The translations under genes and the position numbers were made by a program. The notes below the pieces were generated by a model, which searched no databases, had not been told where the DNA came from, and was given only the letters and a program-made list of their open reading frames with translations. Positions 4,038 to 13,085 of a stretch of 64,000 bases of DNA are shown here, piece by piece (positions within the stretch are counted from its first letter, which is position 1; every line of letters starts with the position of its first letter). Source of the DNA: Luteibacter sp. dw_328 (lineage in GTDB: Bacteria; Pseudomonadota; Gammaproteobacteria; Xanthomonadales; Rhodanobacteraceae); NCBI RefSeq assembly GCF_018449605.1, contig NZ_JAAVUW010000003.1, positions 1 through 64,000 of the forward strand. The letters run 5' to 3'.

Positions 4038-4168
4038 GAGAACCTCCAGGTATGTTGCCCAGCACCATGGACCAGCGTGAACCTCCGGCGTACCACGGAA
4101 CGTGATGGCGCTCGGCTATGATGGCGGGCGAACCGGCGGCGGGACCGCCCGGATGGACTCGACAACGC

Positions 4169-4897
4169 ATGAACCAGGTGAAGTCGCACTCGCGCGACAA
4201 ACGTGTCGCCAGCGCCCGTGAGGCTCTGGCCGGCCTCGTGGCCGACGGACAGATCATCGCCGTGGGCGGCTTCGGCCTCTGCGGTATTCCGGAGCTTCTC
4301 ATCGAGGCCCTTCGCGATTCCGGGGTCACGGGCCTGACCGCCGTGTCGAACAATGCCGGTATCGACGGCGTCGGCCTCGGCCTGCTGCTGGCCACCCGCC
4401 AGATCCGCAAGATGGTTTCCTCCTATGTGGGTGAGAACAAGGAGTTCGAGCGCCAGTTCCTCGCCGGTGAGCTCGAGGTCGAGTTCACCCCGCAGGGCAC
4501 GCTTGCCGAGAAGCTGCGCGCCGGCGGCGCGGGCATCCCCGCCTTCTTCACCCGCACCGGTTACGGCACCCAGGTGGCCGAGGGCAAGGAAACCCGCGAC
4601 TTCGACGGCAACATGTACGTGATGGAGCGATCCATCGTCGCCGACGTGGCGCTGGTAAAAGCCTGGAAGGCCGATCCCTCGGGCAACCTCGTCTACCGCA
4701 AGACCGCGCGCAACTTCAATCCGATGGCTGCCACGGCGGGCAAGGTCTGCATCGCCGAGGTCGAGATCATGGTGGAAGTGGGCGAGCTGGATCCGGACCA
4801 GGTCCATACGCCGGGCATCTACGTCGATCGCATCGTGCATAACCCCGCGCCGTCCAAGCGCATCGAACAGCGCACCGTGCGCGCACAGGGAGCCTGA
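4169..4897 (+). CDS. scoA: 3-oxoacid CoA-transferase subunit A
   Basis: Alpha subunit of a succinyl-CoA:3-ketoacid CoA-transferase that activates acetoacetate by moving CoA from succinyl-CoA. I chose the ATG at 4169 (242 residues), which fits the family length (about 235-240). A longer reading from 4118 adds 17 residues with no family match, and a TATGAT -10-like sequence at 4115-4120 would lie upstream of the shorter start only. The glycine-rich CoA-binding stretch [11 protein letters not shown] is at about residues 33-43. Subunit B follows after 2 nt, so the pair is translationally linked. It could act on a related 3-oxoacid instead of acetoacetate. Confidence 0.92.
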
Positions 4898-6865: not shown

Positions 6866-6991
6866 GTGAAGGTGCTTTCCTCTTTGAAGTCCGCGAAGTC
6901 GCGTCACCGTGACTGCAAAGTCGTTCGCCGTCGCGGCAAAGTGTTCGTGATCTGCAAGAGCAACCCCCGTTTCAAGGCTCGTCAGCGCTAA
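6866..6991 (+). CDS. rpmJ: 50S ribosomal protein L36 (41-residue form)
   Basis: Tiny basic ribosomal protein, 41 residues, starting at GTG with CAGGAG 6 nt upstream. It begins [20 protein letters not shown] and continues [21 protein letters not shown]. This is the long paralogue (YkgO-like) with an extra N-terminal insertion and only part of the zinc ligand set. It is monocistronic, with its own sigma-70 promoter and an intrinsic terminator. Confidence 0.95.
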
Positions 6992-7015
6992 TCTTTAGCT
7001 GCGACGGGTAAAAAG

Positions 7016-7040
7016 AAGGCCGCGAAAGCGGCCTTTTTTT
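7016..7040 (+). terminator. Rho-independent terminator of rpmJ
   Basis: Stem AAGGCCGC / GCGGCCTT with a GAAA tetraloop followed by a T run, 24 bp after the rpmJ stop codon. Confidence 0.9.
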
Positions 7041-7050
7041 ATGCCTGATA

Positions 7051-7122
7051 GTGTGGGAGCCGCTTCAGCGGCGATAGCCAGGTGGCGGTAACCCTCATCG
7101 CCGGCATAGCCGACTCCCACAC
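7051..7122. repeat. REP-like palindrome, CTTCAGCGG variant
   Basis: GTGTGGGAGCCGCTTCAGCGG and an inverted, partly diverged partner ending CGACTCCCACAC. It reaches the stop codon of the diguanylate cyclase gene. Confidence 0.8.
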
Positions 7123-8945
7123 TACCCACGCGCCTCGGTCAGGTAGGGCGAATCCGGAATATCACCGGTATCGCCCATGAAGACGCAATTGCGCCCTGCC
7201 CGCTTCGCCCGATAAAGCGCCGCGTCGGCAACCACAAGCAGCCGGTGCAACTCGAAGCCACATTGCAATGTGGATGAAACACCGAAGCTCGCGGTCACCG
7301 CCAGCTCGGGACGCGTCGGCGTAGAGGCTGTCGCCGAGATGGATAAGCGAAGCTGTTCGGCGCGTGCGCGTGCCTGTGCCGGACTGCAATCGGGCAACAG
7401 GACCGCGAACTCCTCACCACCCAGACGACCGAACACATCGCAGGCGTGCAAGGCACGATGGCAGACATCGACCGCACGCTTAAGCACTTCGTCGCCCACG
7501 GCATGACCGTAGGTATCGTTGACGTTCTTGAAGTGATCCAGATCGAACAGGATCAGGCAGAGCCCACGGTCGGAACGCGCACCATAGGCAAGCACGCGAT
7601 CGGCCTGCTCGACGAAGTGTTCCCGATTGCAGATACCTGTCAGGCCGTCACGACGCGCCAGCTTCATGAAACGCATCTGTGAGCGGCGCAGCCACAACAC
7701 CAACCAGACGATGGCGGCAAGGCTGGCAGCGAGAATGACGATATAAAGACGACCGGTTTCGACGTCCTTGCGATCGAGCGCGCCATTCAGACGCAGGATT
7801 TCATTCTGCTTGTTGAGTGACTCGACTTCGGCCTTTCGTGCCAGCAGCTGCTGGTCGACGATCTGGAAGGCCAGACTGCGGGCACTCACGTCGTTGAGGT
7901 AAGCCTTATCCGCCGCCATGTACAGCACGTGGTAGGCCAGTGCCGCCGCTGCATTGCCCGCCTGCTCCTCGACCTGAAAGAGCACCTCGTAACCGGTGCG
8001 CCGCGGGTCTGTGAACTCACCGTGGACGGATCCGGCGATGGCGGAAAGACCGTACCGCCGTGCATTCGGCAAGTCACCCAGCCTGAAGTACGCCTGCGCA
8101 AGCGTCGCATCGAACTCGGCCAACAGCGCGGGATAGTTCAGGGTACGAAGCCCGTCGCGATGGGCAACAAGAAGTTTTACCGCTTCGTCCGGATGTCCAT
8201 TGGCTACCTGGAACGCGGCGATATTGACCCGCATCCCGTCGGCGAAAATTTCCTCGCCTGCGCCGACGCATGCTTCGAGGGTCTTTTCATAGATTGGATC
8301 CAGCACATGAAGACGATTTCCTTCGCGTCGAGCGCGAAGAAGATGTTCGCCTCCTTTGCAAATCGTCTCACCGGGTGGCGGGTCATCAATCATCTGCTGC
8401 GCATAGGCCTCGGCCTGGTCGTACTGACCCGCCGAACTGAGCATCTGCGAGGCTTCGCCAAGTGCCTGGAACCGGGCATTGCGATCACGGATGGACGGCA
8501 GCATTTCCTGCAACTGACTCAGGCGAAGGAACGCCTGCTCGTAACGGTGACCGATCCCGAGCAGATTCACGAGCGTCGCGGTCGCGCGAGCGCGCATCAC
8601 GTTACTACTTGCGGTATCCGCAACCTCGTCGAGCGCCGCCTTGCCCGTCTCGTAATCGCCAACCCACGTTGCGCGCCATCCACGCAGGAAAGTCAGCAGC
8701 GATTGCTGGTCCTTGGCCAGCCGCGCGCTTTGGGGGATGACCTCATCGAGAAGTCGGGAAAACTGAGCAAAATCGACAGTCTTGATTGCGTCCGCACGCG
8801 CCAGCTTCGCATCCAGATCGGCGATGTCCACAGAGGCTGCTGGCGCCGGAGCGCCAGCAGCTTGCGACGCCGCATGCACGCTGGCCGTCGCACATGCGAC
8901 AACCAGCATGGCCGAGATGAACCCAAAGCGGACGCCCGCTTTCAT
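7122..8945 (-). CDS. Diguanylate cyclase with periplasmic TPR-like sensor
   Basis: 607-residue protein that should make cyclic di-GMP. The start at 8945 gives a clean signal peptide (MKAGVRFGFISAMLVVACA...) with cleavage after ASVHA; upstream in-frame codons lie within the preceding small gene. Residues about 35-370 are helical and TPR-like. One membrane helix follows at about 400-420 (LYIVILAASLAAIVWLVLWL), then a GGDEF domain with an intact GGEEF active site (GRLGGEEFAVLLPD). The residues before it (HACD) lack the arginine of the RxxD inhibitory site, so product inhibition is probably absent. The gene starts 4 nt after the stop of borosin-like precursor C, suggesting coupled expression with the RiPP genes. 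Confidence 0.9.
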   Translation of the reverse strand: MKAGVRFGFISAMLVVACATASVHAASQAAGAPAPAASVDIADLDAKLARADAIKTVDFAQFSRLLDEVIPQSARLAKDQQSLLTFLRGWRATWVGDYETGKAALDEVADTASSNVMRARATATLVNLLGIGHRYEQAFLRLSQLQEMLPSIRDRNARFQALGEASQMLSSAGQYDQAEAYAQQMIDDPPPGETICKGGEHLLRARREGNRLHVLDPIYEKTLEACVGAGEEIFADGMRVNIAAFQVANGHPDEAVKLLVAHRDGLRTLNYPALLAEFDATLAQAYFRLGDLPNARRYGLSAIAGSVHGEFTDPRRTGYEVLFQVEEQAGNAAAALAYHVLYMAADKAYLNDVSARSLAFQIVDQQLLARKAEVESLNKQNEILRLNGALDRKDVETGRLYIVILAASLAAIVWLVLWLRRSQMRFMKLARRDGLTGICNREHFVEQADRVLAYGARSDRGLCLILFDLDHFKNVNDTYGHAVGDEVLKRAVDVCHRALHACDVFGRLGGEEFAVLLPDCSPAQARARAEQLRLSISATASTPTRPELAVTASFGVSSTLQCGFELHRLLVVADAALYRAKRAGRNCVFMGDTGDIPDSPYLTEARG

Positions 8946-8949
8946 ACCG

Positions 8950-9267
8950 TCAGTGCCTGGAGCCGGGAGCCGATGACTTCGGCAGGCGATGCTGGAGCGA
9001 TTGCTCGCCCTCCTCATCGTTCTCATCACCCTCTTCGTCTTCAGGCTCTTCCTCTTCACGGAGGGGATCGCCCATCTGCGTGGCAAAGAAAATACCCTGG
9101 CCCAGCACTGTGCGAAGCGCCTCGGGATCGCGGGAGATCATCGCTTCGCCCAGAGCACCGTCCATGCCGGATTCATTCGCGACAAGCGCGGCTAGCGCAT
9201 CGTCGGATGCGTCGCGTAGCGACGCGTCTTTTCCAAGACGCGCCAAGAACTCGATTACATTCCCCAT
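8950..9267 (-). CDS. Split-borosin-type precursor C (leader with acidic tail)
   Basis: 105-residue product, third of three paralogous small proteins. The leader MGNVIEFLARLGKDASLR and the later DPEALRTVLGQG match those of precursors A and B. The start at 9267 is chosen because AAGGG lies about 9 nt upstream and the leader begins there as in its paralogues. Residues about 68-86 are a very acidic run rich in Glu and Asp, followed by a basic Ser/Pro tail ending APGSRH. It lacks the A-L-M-P repeats of precursor A, so it may carry a different core or act only as a leader partner. Its stop is 4 nt before the diguanylate cyclase start. Assignment rests on leader similarity and context. Confidence 0.7.
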   Translation of the reverse strand: MGNVIEFLARLGKDASLRDASDDALAALVANESGMDGALGEAMISRDPEALRTVLGQGIFFATQMGDPLREEEEPEDEEGDENDEEGEQSLQHRLPKSSAPGSRH

Positions 9268-9368
9268 CCTACTCATCCCTTGAGCACAGAGGACCAACCC
9301 CTGGCCCGAACTGGCGAATCCTCCCCTTGAGGCCGCCCCCTGCGGATCATAGCCCTAAGGGTGGCTGG

Positions 9369-9478
9369 GTTGAAGTAGGCCAGTCGGCCGGTGCAACGCC
9401 CCGGTCAGCTCACGTCGGAAGCCATAGCCTGAAAGGGCGCCATGAGGGATGCGGAAACCGGAGGCATCAACGCTGCCG
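9369..9478. repeat. 110-bp direct repeat, copy 1
   Basis: Ungapped match to 9819-9928 at an offset of exactly 450 bp, about 85% identical by eye. It covers the 3' end of the precursor B region, including the unread core remnant, and the following spacer. Confidence 0.85.
9405..9476 (-). pseudogene. Unread core-repeat remnant downstream of precursor B
   Basis: Read in the -1 frame relative to precursor B, this stretch encodes AALMPPVS, then ASLMAPFQ, then AMASDVS and a stop. That is the same octapeptide array and the same SDVS ending as precursor A. In the annotated frame, precursor B stops at 9467-9469, so most of it is not translated. The -1 frame stays open upstream to about 9575. The simplest reading is that an indel within the second repeat of B shifted the frame and truncated the peptide. 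Confidence 0.7.
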
Positions 9479-9712
9479 GATCAGGGCGTCCTGGAAATCC
9501 GTGGGCATCTGACCTACCTGATACACCGGTACCTCCGCCGCGTGGCCGTGAAGCACGCGCTCCACGGCACGGGTGTCACCGGAGGCAACCGACTCACGGA
9601 ACACGACATCCAGCCCCTCGGCATCCATGGCCTGAAGCAGCGCATCGCGTCCGCCGTAACGCAGGCTGGCGTCACTTCCAACTTTCCCGAGAAACTCGAT
9701 CAACTGCGACAT
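9467..9712 (-). CDS. Split-borosin-type precursor B (frame-shifted core)
   Basis: 81-residue product with a strong AGGAGAG ribosome-binding site 6 nt before ATG. The leader MSQLIEFLGKVGSDASLR, followed by AMDAEGLD and SGDTRAVERVL, is clearly homologous to precursor A (MSQMIEFLTRVGADSSLR, AMDAMGLD, AGDAEGVRAQI). The C terminus, VYQVGQMPTDFQDALIRQR, shows one degenerate core repeat (QMPTDFQD) and the start of a second before a premature stop. Further repeats persist downstream in the -1 frame. It may still be a substrate with a short divergent core, or a decaying copy of precursor A. Confidence 0.75.
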   Translation of the reverse strand: MSQLIEFLGKVGSDASLRYGGRDALLQAMDAEGLDVVFRESVASGDTRAVERVLHGHAAEVPVYQVGQMPTDFQDALIRQR

Positions 9713-9818
9713 TCACTCTCTCCTGTCATGGGCCAAGGGTTAAGCCCCTCGGAACGCATCAGCGATTCCAGGCGGCTGCGGATTTCGTCATCGGGGATGC
9801 ATCGCACTTGCGGGATCC

Positions 9819-9928
9819 GTTGAAGTAGGCCAATCGTTGGGTGCAGCGCCCCGGTCAGCTCACGTCGGAGGGCGCAGCCCGAAAGGGCGCCACCAGGGAT
9901 GCAGAAATCGGAGCCATCAACGCTACCG
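9819..9928. repeat. 110-bp direct repeat, copy 2
   Basis: Partner of 9369-9478. It covers the 3' coding end of precursor A, its stop codon and the spacer. It indicates that precursor B arose by duplication of precursor A, or the reverse. Confidence 0.85.
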
Positions 9929-10157
9929 AAAATGCTGGCATCAACGCTGCCGAAAATGGTGGCATGAGGGCCACAAAGTATGCGGATTGCTGAACAATCT
10001 GCGCCCTGACCCCTTCAGCGTCACCGGCGGATACACAGGAGCGCATCTCGCCATCAAGGCCCATGGCATCCATGGCGGCGCACAGGCTTTCACCACTACC
10101 GAAGCGAAGGCTGGAATCAGCGCCTACGCGGGTCAGGAACTCGATCATCTGAGACAT
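9855..10157 (-). CDS. Split-borosin-type precursor A with four-repeat core
   Basis: 100-residue precursor peptide. The ATG at 10157 has GAGGAGAG about 6 nt upstream. Residues 1-60 form a predicted helical leader (MSQMIEFLTRVGADSSLRFG at the start) matching in pattern the borosin-binding domain of split-borosin precursors such as SonA: short N-terminal helix, G-x-D-x-x-L, then A-M-x-x-x-G-L and a G-D turn. Residues 62-93 are four octapeptides: VALMPPFS, AALMPAFS, VALMAPIS, ASLVAPFR, followed by AAPSDVS. They are small, hydrophobic and Pro-rich, as expected for backbone N-methylated cores. It lies 34 nt downstream of the methyltransferase gene. Product structure and processing are unknown. Confidence 0.85.
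   Translation of the reverse strand: MSQMIEFLTRVGADSSLRFGSGESLCAAMDAMGLDGEMRSCVSAGDAEGVRAQIVQQSAYFVALMPPFSAALMPAFSVALMAPISASLVAPFRAAPSDVS
9879..9974 (-). repeat. Four tandem 24-bp units encoding the core octapeptides
   Basis: Codons 62-93 of precursor A. Repetition is visible in the DNA (CATCAACGCTACCGAAAATG and CATCAACGCTGCCGAAAATG on the plus strand), so the core grew by in-frame tandem duplication. Confidence 0.85.
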
Positions 10158-10191
10158 TGGAACTCTCCTCAAAATGGAACATTGGCAAGAA

Positions 10192-11001
10192 TCACGCCAC
10201 GTCGGCGTGGCGCAACGCGTCGAGCCTCTCCCGGACCGTCGGATCCAACACAAGGGCCTTCGCCGGCGGAATGGCAACTGTTTCCGATGTGCTGACGACG
10301 GTGTCGACCAGTTGATCGAGCCGCACCCGTCGGATGGATGGCCGTTCGATAGGCAACGTCGGCACCTTGTACACAATGACCTCATGATCCCCAGGGTAGT
10401 GGCGCATGAGCACATCCACGAGCACCTGACGATAAGCGGGCCCCGTTCCCAGCTTCCCCAGCGTCAGGTCTCCCACCAGACCAACCTGCCACAGGAACAA
10501 CCACGCAGACGGGTCGACGACTCGCTTGTAGACGATGAACTGTGTCGCCTCGAAATGCTGACACCCAAAGGTACCCGGATCGATGCCCAGGTCGGCGTAG
10601 AGACAATCTTCCGAGGACACCCCCGGTTCCATGCGCGCTTCGTAACCTTCCGCGCGGGCCAGCTCAATCGACTGGTGCGGCGCGAGAGCAAAAATTCCAG
10701 GGTGCCCGTAGAACACGCCACATACGCGCTTTCCTGCGCGCACCTCGACAAGGATGGCTTCGACCATTTCCCCATAAGTGTCGTGCCGGGATTTCCCTGC
10801 GGCATAGTAAGGTTGCAGGCTTCGCACGTCCGGGTGCATCTCGCGCAACCAGAGCTCGACAATCGCGTCGGACACCCCAGCGAAAACGACGTCCGCATGA
10901 TCGATCTCGCTTTGCGCGATCGGTGTGATGTGCGACCCAAGGGTCATCCCCACGCCGACGCAGACCAGCCGTCCCCGTGTGGCTATCGCGCTCGCACTCA
11001 T
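10192..11001 (-). CDS. Borosin-type peptide backbone alpha-N-methyltransferase
   Basis: 269-residue SAM-dependent methylase of the tetrapyrrole-methylase fold. From memory it is closely similar along its length to SonM, the split-borosin enzyme of Shewanella, and to the N-terminal half of fungal OphMA. The SAM loop CVGVGMTLG is at 14-22. Y66, R72 and Y76 (Y-x5-R-x3-Y in YAAGKSRHDTY) have the spacing of the OphMA catalytic triad. YGHPGIFA is at 98-105, followed by MEPGVSSEDCLYADLGIDPG and FEATQF. There is no precobalamin or sirohaem biosynthesis gene nearby; instead three candidate precursors follow. GGGGAG precedes the ATG. It should methylate amide nitrogens of the core residues in trans. 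Confidence 0.9.
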   Translation of the reverse strand: MSASAIATRGRLVCVGVGMTLGSHITPIAQSEIDHADVVFAGVSDAIVELWLREMHPDVRSLQPYYAAGKSRHDTYGEMVEAILVEVRAGKRVCGVFYGHPGIFALAPHQSIELARAEGYEARMEPGVSSEDCLYADLGIDPGTFGCQHFEATQFIVYKRVVDPSAWLFLWQVGLVGDLTLGKLGTGPAYRQVLVDVLMRHYPGDHEVIVYKVPTLPIERPSIRRVRLDQLVDTVVSTSETVAIPPAKALVLDPTVRERLDALRHADVA

Positions 11002-11030
11002 GCCCTACTCCCCCGACAGACAAGAACGTC

Positions 11031-12662
11031 TTATAGCAGAGCCGCCGCTTTGTGCAAGGCGATCCAAACGCCGATCAGGAACGGAATGCCCACCGCCAGC
11101 CAGGCCACGATACCGATGGCTCCGAACGGCCCGCGCGCCGCGGCGGCCAGGCTGGCATCCGAGGCCTGCACCTCGTGCTGCAGCGCCCGTTCGCGCTTCA
11201 GCTCTTCCTCGGTCATGTGGTGCTTCGGGTCCACCGGGCGAACCAGCAGGTTGCAGATCAGGCCGATCAGCAGAAGACCCGCGAGAATGTACAGGGTGCG
11301 GTCGTAGACGAGATTCTTGGCCACGCCGGCGCCGAGCTGCGCTTCACGAATACCTGCGATCAAGACGGGGCCGATCACGCCGGCTACCGACCATGCGGTG
11401 AGCAGGCGGCCGTGGATGGCGCCGACCATCTGCGTGCCGAACATATCTGCCAGGTAGGCCGGCACCGTGGCGAAACCGCCGCCGTACATCGACAGGATCA
11501 CGCAGACCGTGATGACAAATGCCGCCGCCATGCCCAGGTGACCGAGCGTCGGCAGGAGGCAATACAGAATGATGCCGAGGATAAAGAAAACGCAGTAAGT
11601 AAACCGCCGGCCAAGAAAATCCGACGCCGACGCCCAGGCAAGGCGGCCCACCGAATTGAACAGGCTGATGAGGCCCACCAGGCCCGCGGCGGCGGTAGCG
11701 ATGGCGCTCTTCTGCGCGGCGGTGAGTGCCGTACCCGGATCGACACCAAGCAGACCCGCACCGAACACGTCCTGCAACATCGGACTTGCCATGGACAACA
11801 CGCCGATGCCAGCGGTCACGTTCATGCACAGCACGCCCCAGATGAGCCAGAACTGCGGCGTCTTCCAGGCGCGGCTAAGGTGCACGTGGCCATGGCTGAT
11901 CATGGGCCTTTTGGACACGTCCGCCGTGGCTAGCTGATAGCCCACCGGCTTCCAGCCGTTCGGTGTGACCCGGAAGCCGAACGCCCCCAGCGACATCACC
12001 ACGAAGTAAACCAGACCCATGACGATCAGCGTGGTCGACACCCCCGGGACATCGCCGCTCTTGAAGACGTCCATGAGCTTGACGGCAATCGGCGCGCCGA
12101 TCATCGCGCCGCCGCCATAACCCATGATGGCGAAGCCCGTGGCCAGGCCTCGACGGTCGGGAAACCATTTGATCAGCGTCGACACCGGCGTGATGTAACC
12201 AAGCCCCTGCCCCACGCCGCCCAGCAACCCGCAGCCGAGGTAGACCAGCCAGAGCTGGTGGAGAGAGACGCCGATGCCGCCCAGCACCAGGCCGCCGCCC
12301 CAGCAGCACGCGGCGATGAAGCCGGCCTTGCGCGGCCCCGCGTGCTCGAGCCAGCCACCCCAGATCGCCGCGGCGAGGCCGAGCATGGCGATGAAGGTTT
12401 CGAAGATATGGTTGACCGAGGGGACGGTCCAGTTGCAGGTCGTGGTCGTGAGCTGGTCGAGGAAGCCCTGGCTCGCGCAGACCGTGGCATCGGCGCCGGT
12501 CACCAGGTTGCTCATCGGCAGCCAGAACACCGAGAACCCGTAGGCCATGCCGATACATAGATGAATGGCGAGGGCCGCAGGTGGCACCAGCCAGCGATTG
12601 AAACCCGGACCCGCGATCGTACGTTCCCGGGCCAGCAAGCCGGCCGTCTCGTTTCCTGCCAT
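11031..12662 (-). CDS. OFA-family MFS transporter
   Basis: 543-residue inner-membrane transporter of the oxalate/formate antiporter branch of the major facilitator superfamily, with 12 predicted helices. Family signs are GMAYGFSVFWLPMSNL in helix 1, GCGLLGGVGQGLGYITPV in helix 4 and WFPDRRGLATGFAIMGYGGGA. A hydrophilic insertion between the first two helices (about residues 55-80) has two cysteines. Substrate is unknown; family members move oxalate, formate or other monocarboxylates. Its stop is 29 nt upstream of the N-methyltransferase start on the same strand, so it could be co-transcribed with the RiPP genes. Confidence 0.85.
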   Translation of the reverse strand: MAGNETAGLLARERTIAGPGFNRWLVPPAALAIHLCIGMAYGFSVFWLPMSNLVTGADATVCASQGFLDQLTTTTCNWTVPSVNHIFETFIAMLGLAAAIWGGWLEHAGPRKAGFIAACCWGGGLVLGGIGVSLHQLWLVYLGCGLLGGVGQGLGYITPVSTLIKWFPDRRGLATGFAIMGYGGGAMIGAPIAVKLMDVFKSGDVPGVSTTLIVMGLVYFVVMSLGAFGFRVTPNGWKPVGYQLATADVSKRPMISHGHVHLSRAWKTPQFWLIWGVLCMNVTAGIGVLSMASPMLQDVFGAGLLGVDPGTALTAAQKSAIATAAAGLVGLISLFNSVGRLAWASASDFLGRRFTYCVFFILGIILYCLLPTLGHLGMAAAFVITVCVILSMYGGGFATVPAYLADMFGTQMVGAIHGRLLTAWSVAGVIGPVLIAGIREAQLGAGVAKNLVYDRTLYILAGLLLIGLICNLLVRPVDPKHHMTEEELKRERALQHEVQASDASLAAAARGPFGAIGIVAWLAVGIPFLIGVWIALHKAAALL

Positions 12663-12734
12663 GCGTTTGTTCCCCTGCCTGTGAGTGGTACTTCCCCGGA
12701 TCGCATCTTAGGCAGGTTTTGGGCTGGCGCCACC

Positions 12735-13085
12735 CTACGATGGTCTTAGTCGCTCCCTTCGCCGCCACTCGCCCGGCGGCGCGTCGAACGCGCGGCGGAA
12801 GCGCCGCGTGAAGTGGGCCTGGTCGGAGAGGCCGCAGCGCACGGCAATGTCACATAGCGCATCGTCGGTGGCGAGCATGAGCTCGCAGGCGCGCTCCAGG
12901 CGACGCATCAACACATAGGCGTGAGGCGTACTGCCGAAGCTCGCCTTGAAGGCGCGGAAGAAATAGGACTCGCTGTAACCGATCGCCGAAGCCAGTTCGG
13001 CGATGGCGAGGCGACGTCCGAGATGCGTGTCGATGAAGCGTTGCAGGCGCTCGTGCGCCCAGGGGGGAAGACGACTTTCGTTCAT
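12735..13085 (-). CDS. Small AraC-family DNA-binding protein
   Basis: 116 residues consisting almost only of an AraC/XylS double helix-turn-helix (LAIAELASAIGYSESYFFRAF and LCDIAVRCGLSDQAHFTRRF). It has no effector-binding domain, so it may act constitutively or respond to abundance, like MarA/SoxS-type proteins. The start at 13085 overlaps the ohr stop by ATGA, indicating translational coupling. It is the last gene of an SDR-ohr-araC operon, suggesting a role in hydroperoxide or electrophile response. Confidence 0.88.
   Translation of the reverse strand: MNESRLPPWAHERLQRFIDTHLGRRLAIAELASAIGYSESYFFRAFKASFGSTPHAYVLMRRLERACELMLATDDALCDIAVRCGLSDQAHFTRRFRRAFDAPPGEWRRRERLRPS

Follow-up and report, generated by a model that had tools for sequence, protein, structure and literature searches.

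The 64,000-nucleotide stretch of DNA analyzed here (hereafter the window), from contig NZ_JAAVUW010000003.1 of Luteibacter sp. dw_328, contains a putative split-borosin operon in which a backbone N-methyltransferase gene and three precursor genes are followed by a gene for a predicted sensor diguanylate cyclase. We propose that this operon makes an N-methylated peptide that serves as a signal and assign this combined explanation a probability of roughly 0.6. The biosynthetic half of the proposal, that the window holds a split borosin operon of type IV, is judged from homology to be highly probable; that the borosin peptides are ligands of the tetratricopeptide repeat (TPR) sensors is put at even odds, on the basis of the pairing of precursors with sensors, the exchange of output domains, and the TPR fold. 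Specifically, the methyltransferase would bind each of the three precursors at its helical leader (BBD) and methylate backbone amides in the short core that follows the leader. The core would then be released and exported by enzymes of the host and sensed by the cyclase encoded in the same operon, a membrane protein, through its TPR domain, with a change in cyclic di-GMP output. On this view, the peptide most probably acts as a signal, or as a cue sensed by its own producer, and not mainly as a toxin. The sequence shows the enzyme family, the leader family, the repeat core, the gene order, the precursor-sensor pairing, and the exchange of output domains, and we infer the steps of core methylation, leader removal, export, TPR binding, and an effect on cyclic di-GMP. 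The elements of the operon, in order of transcription, are the following.

10192-11001, minus strand: methyltransferase gene, apparently for a split-borosin alpha-N-methyltransferase of the SonM type (269 amino acids; SonM homology, active-site residues kept).

9855-10157, minus strand: precursor C, a BBD-like leader and a core with a four-fold 8-residue repeat, without an acidic tail.

9467-9712, minus strand: precursor B, a BBD-like leader and a short core, without an acidic tail.

9405-9473, minus strand: out-of-frame core remnant, after and across the stop of B, where another frame spells a C-like core.

8950-9267, minus strand: precursor A, a BBD-like leader, a short core, and a long acidic tail.

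7122-8945, minus strand: predicted sensor diguanylate cyclase gene (607 amino acids; signal-like N terminus, TPR domain, one hydrophobic segment, and a GGDEF domain with the motif GGEEF).

The gaps between the five genes, from the methyltransferase gene through C, B, and A to the cyclase gene, are 34, 142, 199, and 4 nucleotides. The start of precursor A was taken as the ATG at 9267, with an upstream TTG at 9297 as a possible alternative. As in other type IV split borosins, methyltransferase and precursors are separate proteins.

The product of 10192-11001 is, by homology, a SonM-type split-borosin N-methyltransferase. Against all sequences in the Protein Data Bank (PDB), its best match was SonM (E = 5.5e-70, residues 10 to 255); dbOphMA, MroMA, and OphMA, enzymes of the fused borosin type, came next (E about 1e-48 to 1e-42). 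Residues Y66, R72, Y76, and Y98, as numbered from this alignment, align with Y58, R67, Y71, and Y93 of SonM, and their counterparts are unchanged in 48/48 other enzymes of the loci compared below; mutating these four SonM residues lowers activity, according to the portions consulted of PMC8429565. The 269-residue protein stops about 14 residues past the SonM match and so carries no fused core of the kind that defines borosin types I to III. Pfam placed it only in the broad TP_methylase family, which it has in common with cobalamin, siroheme, and diphthine-type methylases. An enzyme of that sort, standing beside unrelated small genes, is scarcely credible and was rejected: the best cobalamin enzyme in the PDB search, a precorrin-2 methylase, reached E = 0.0022 against 5.5e-70 for SonM, all NCBIfam models fell far short of their cut-offs (highest score 29.9 bits versus a cut-off of 525; best tetrapyrrole-specific score 20.4 bits versus a cut-off of 391), and SonA-type leaders adjoin the enzyme. 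A best match to cobalamin or diphthine methylases was the outcome that a previous reading of the letters without database searches (the sequence-only reading) had named as counting against itself, and the search returned SonM instead. A PHROGs search gave no match for the methyltransferase.

The three small genes share a leader pattern (MIEFLTRVGADSSLR, LIEFLGKVGSDASLR, and VIEFLARLGKDASLR). Pfam gave no match for any of them, and the single NCBIfam match, to the acidic tail of A, was far under its cut-off (E = 0.019). Because a single-sequence phmmer search of the PDB with precursor B returned designed repeat proteins only, a precursor profile was needed to reach SonA. This was built from 53 aligned sequences out of 78 precursor matches, namely, the 3 of the window, 8 from the two other loci of the same genome, and 42 from relatives. 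When 177,635 PDB sequences were searched with it, the first seven matches were all SonA (E = 2.7e-5 to 1.3e-4), and the next, non-SonA chain followed at E = 0.1. The predicted model of C (predicted local distance difference test score, pLDDT, 77.2) has five helices over residues 3 to 64 and a disordered core, and the SonA leader likewise has five helices in the available part of PMC8429565. In Foldseek, the first five chains matched by this model were SonA, with weak E-values (0.6 to 1.7) and probabilities of 0.72 to 0.94. On profile and predicted fold, the three leaders are SonA-type and BBD-like. The sequence-only reading had described a methylase gene and three small same-strand genes with a common leader pattern as a split borosin locus. 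The gene set is real, given the separation of SonA from the next chain by the profile, and the split-borosin interpretation is supported by SonM homology together with the SonA-type leaders.

Its further claim of a repeated core in one precursor also held. In C, a 45-residue stretch taken as the core contains an 8-residue repeat, with 14 self-matches at period 8 (P = 1.5e-4; 20,000 shuffles, periods 3 to 19). B and C are tandem duplicates whose shared sequence extends past the coding part, with B frame-shifted relative to C. The frame remnant of the repeat core at 9405-9473, after the stop of B, reflects either a real mutation or an assembly error. At a related locus (L049, 6590-6901), the counterpart of B seems by eye to carry a 9-residue repeat core of its own, unlike that of C. 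The leaders are under purifying selection: nonsynonymous and synonymous divergence (dN and dS) were 0.17 and 0.97 between the B leader and its L049 counterpart and 0.43 and 1.49 for the A leader. The acidic tail that is usual among precursors of the host family is present in A and absent from B and C. Residues 62 to 93 of A, proposed by the sequence-only reading as the zone of methylation, are mostly acidic tail. SonA is methylated at L63 and I65, in the consulted text of PMC8429565, and alignment with SonA points to residues near 62 to 66 of A as the first place to expect methylation. Judging from these sequences, one methyltransferase likely serves multiple precursor substrates.

The cyclase gene, which begins 4 nucleotides downstream of precursor A, was absent from the sequence-only reading, and we think that it is the more informative part of the locus. 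Its product is predicted to be a membrane sensor diguanylate cyclase, with a Pfam GGDEF match at E = 2e-37 and the motif GGEEF, which fits the GG(D/E)EF signature. The same motif occurs in 55/55 full-length family cyclases listed; an RxxD inhibitory site stands at its usual place in 35 of these, and the window cyclase is without it. As read from the sequences, the TPR domain follows a signal-like N terminus and is separated from the GGDEF domain by the single hydrophobic segment; it is predicted to sit outside the inner membrane. Cysteines 196 and 226, the same in all 55 family proteins, would suit an oxidizing compartment. The TPR domain was modeled with a pLDDT of 92.7 and a predicted template modeling score of 0.86. 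Structural matches to this model were headed by LGN complexes; the pheromone receptors Rap and NprR appeared from rank 18 onward, with other TPR proteins in between; by sequence, RapF (E = 7e-4) was the only match of the TPR part among the matches listed (best 60 of 61).

The predicted location of the TPR domain bears on a different role for the precursors, in which each would act as an intact small protein whose uncleaved leader and methylated core regulate an intracellular partner, the methyltransferase being a regulatory protein-modifying enzyme. Long acidic tails (mean acidic fraction past residue 60 of 0.30 and 0.33 in two clades of 18 and 16 precursors from outside the genus) would agree with such a role, as would the lack of a recurring dedicated peptidase or exporter. 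We nevertheless regard it as improbable, since the TPR domain is predicted to lie outside the cytoplasm and tail-less precursors such as B and C exist.

To follow the pairing of enzyme and sensor across the host family, 233 genomes were surveyed for presence at search thresholds, and the enzyme and cyclase lists were compared by eye. The enzyme was found in 162 genomes, precursors likewise in 162, and the cyclase's TPR part in 158; enzyme and TPR-cyclase occurred together in 157 and were both missing from 70, leaving 6 in disagreement. Five of these had the enzyme only (G031, G034, G036, G039, and G040), in each case a remote one (E = 1e-65 to 1e-68), and the single cyclase-only genome, G081, is 86% complete. 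We then compared 48 family loci, a non-random draw made up of the window, two loci of the same genome, and 45 high-scoring matches from relatives spread over genera. A protein matching both the TPR and GGDEF halves is encoded on the same strand in 47/48, as a rule directly after the precursor or precursors, the exception being L048, another locus of the host genome. One precursor was detected at 36 loci, two or more at 11, and none at 1; 7 of the 11 multi-precursor loci belong to the host genus, where the highest counts, 7 and 12, were also found. The suggestion that the three-precursor locus is unlike simple enzyme-precursor pairs therefore stands for the family, where one precursor is usual, and fails as a claim of uniqueness. 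Placement of the locus in a xanthomonad was upheld at the level of order only, the best named relative being a Lysobacterales metagenome-assembled genome. At L051 (2590-6228), twelve precursor matches lie by one methyltransferase, including two pairs that are identical or almost so (the protein at 4161 equals that at 4789) and one fragment. At L089 (6592-11291), two tandem methyltransferase-precursor units have one full-length TPR-cyclase between them.

Trees of the enzyme, the TPR part, and the GGDEF part were drawn for 45 loci (without L048, L062, and L089). Each keeps the two precursor types apart except for a single locus, L070. The typing rule (DT in the first five letters) had assigned L070 (MSHTVELLEAIG) to the wrong type, and its misplacement is probably a labeling slip; the 16 "V" precursors include L070, and the labels of L051 and L056 were fixed. 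Enzyme and TPR distances were correlated over the same 45 loci (r = 0.79, P = 0.0005). The 18 precursors of one clade have a core, PQ..Q.PGHEEE, that is conserved across genera.

The host genome encodes three borosin methyltransferases and 13 precursors at three loci (3 in the window, 7 on contig 21, and 3 on contig 11). Although it has 28 GGDEF domain matches, the TPR part of the window cyclase was matched only twice, each time at a borosin locus. The contig 21 locus (L047, G000:C21:56000-71000) consists of a methyltransferase, seven precursors, and a TPR-GGDEF gene, with a long acidic tail on the last precursor only. The contig 11 locus (L048, G000:C11:481000-494000) has the order precursor, methyltransferase, two precursors, with a TonB-dependent receptor downstream.

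The best matches to the window TPR part led to 18 further cyclase loci in 17 genomes of the host genus (G114 was left out). A BBD precursor stands directly before the cyclase in 14/18. In 13 of these 14, no methyltransferase was found within 13.5 to 14 kb; the remaining one, L135, has a methyltransferase. Every one of the 17 genomes has at least one methyltransferase, which in G106 is the local one. Because 13/18 loci are without a local methyltransferase and yet all 17 genomes carry one, precursor and TPR sensor look like a steadier unit than the enzyme, as far as gene content tells, and the methyltransferase probably works in trans on such cassettes.

Loci outside the host family were then considered. 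The enzyme is uncommon there, being present in 9/369 genomes of a class sample and 15/398 of a phylum sample, the host family's own included; together, these samples gave 20 distinct outside loci. An adjacent TPR-GGDEF gene was found in 11/20 (L104 and L114 to L123; E for the TPR part between 1e-37 and 1.6e-4). In 3/20 (L105, L124, and L125; profile E = 5e-10, 1.4e-8, and 0.0076), its place is taken by a TPR hybrid histidine kinase. Some of the TPR matches are weak (1.6e-4 in L123, 4.9e-5 in L116, and 0.0076 in L124). Because the TPR part is joined to GGDEF in 11/20 outside loci and to a histidine kinase in 3/20, it appears from these sequences to stay while the output domain changes. At L116, where the enzyme reaches 456.7 bits against SonM, the order is enzyme, SonA-like precursor, TPR-GGDEF. 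A BBD-like small open reading frame was found by profile in 11/14 sensor-bearing outside loci, in L117 only at E = 0.012; those of L105, L124, and L125 had been selected visually and seeded the profile by which they were then found, and the candidates in L118, L119, and L120 were seen by eye only. The enzyme match in L122 contains a stop. L104 has, at 8774-11746, a TPR hybrid histidine kinase between the SonA-like precursor and the methyltransferase, with the TPR-GGDEF gene beyond the methyltransferase. Among other loci from the genome collection, enzyme, precursor, and TPR protein are all encoded at L005, L006, and L007 (the L006 contig ends before the GGDEF part), and L008 had no enzyme above the search threshold. 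In L126 (4840-8373), the methyltransferase domain lies near the start of a 1177-residue open frame with no other Pfam match.

These surveys also speak to an ordinary borosin natural-product cluster, in which the secreted peptides would be bioactive, the cyclase would only time production or biofilm growth, and its TPR domain would sense something else. Repeat cores and arrays of tail-less paralogues do resemble product diversification, and the cores vary in one precursor clade; L048, with a TonB-dependent receptor and, in the stretch read, no TPR-cyclase, would fit as well. That the precursor stays paired with a TPR sensor at 13/18 loci without a local methyltransferase, that the TPR part is retained where the output is a histidine kinase, and that the core motifs of the other clade are conserved across genera all speak for a ligand-sensor relationship, and we consider an ordinary product cluster unlikely, if still a serious contender.

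Several observations weigh against the peptide-signal proposal. Neither sensor type was found in 6/20 outside loci (L106 to L110 and L126), enzyme and cyclase are on opposite strands in L119, the TPR-cyclase was not found in the 13 kb examined at L048, and no precursor was seen at 4/18 of the further cyclase loci (L138, L139, L143, and L144). Arrays of 7 or 12 precursors by one cyclase fit a one-ligand model poorly, and in one of the two precursor clades the core is little conserved except for one proline. TPR folds bind many partners, and the eukaryotic LGN outranks Rap and NprR in the structural comparison. Shared descent alone could yield the agreement among trees. Finally, no dedicated exporter or peptidase was seen in the operon; besides enzyme and cyclase, no gene cluster occurs in more than 11/48 loci (lesser clusters were left without annotation).

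The enzyme and leader families of this operon are already known. As in SonM/SonA of Shewanella oneidensis MR-1 (type IV), enzyme and precursor are separate, the enzyme shows SonM homology with counterparts of Y58, R67, Y71, and Y93, and the leader is a five-helix BBD; at L116, the locus of a close SonM relative, the SonA-like precursor is likewise followed by a TPR-GGDEF gene. Unlike SonM/SonA, the window has three precursors rather than one, an acidic tail on A, and a repeat core on C. The fused borosins OphMA and dbOphMA have a homologous methyltransferase domain, whereas in the window the core is not fused to the enzyme. RRNPP receptors are cytoplasmic and read re-imported peptides. The window cyclase may be related to receptors of this group (RapF-PhrF and NprR-NprX) through its TPR solenoid, given the RapF sequence match and the structural matches, among which LGN ranks higher; it differs in that its TPR domain is predicted to lie outside the inner membrane and is joined to GGDEF, with histidine kinases also found at outside loci.

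Split borosin types IV to X are known from Imani 2022 and Cho 2022, as related in the consulted parts of PMC11285071 and PMC11395268. The operon resembles the split borosins that PMC11395268 labels "class 3" in the legend to its Figure 1, with BBD and core in one protein and the methyltransferase separate. The same legend mentions a GGDEF domain in connection with some borosin architecture, and given that legend, the link between borosins and GGDEF may not be wholly new. A word search of the main text of PMC8429565 found neither GGDEF nor cyclase; that paper states that no split-borosin pathway has yet been linked to a final natural product. A literature search, with Imani 2022, Lee 2024, and Cho 2022 outside it, returned nothing joining borosin with diguanylate or tetratricopeptide, or RiPP (ribosomally synthesized and post-translationally modified peptide) precursor with diguanylate cyclase, and nothing joining borosin with Rhodanobacter or Xanthomonadaceae. 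The association of the sensor gene with the precursor, also at loci whose methyltransferase is encoded elsewhere, leads to a concrete and testable proposal of function, namely, that an N-methylated peptide signal feeds into cyclic di-GMP or a phosphorelay. It is conceivable, though we hold this more tentatively, that SonM-type split borosins as a class are peptide-signal systems with dedicated TPR sensors and outputs through cyclic di-GMP or a phosphorelay, one methyltransferase serving several dispersed cassettes, with arrays in one genus. In addition, three putative natural substrates that differ in length and sequence, one of them repeat-cored, for one backbone methyltransferase would be useful for enzyme engineering.

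In the surroundings of the operon, a promoter scan of the region found no promoters, and no RNA families were found in 6900-13000. A terminator-like hairpin lies at 7035-7016, and terminator-like sites are not enriched in the region (4 versus 4.6 expected). The major facilitator superfamily gene at 11031-12662, upstream of the methyltransferase gene, has counterparts only at L049 and L050 among the loci compared and is treated as local gene order.

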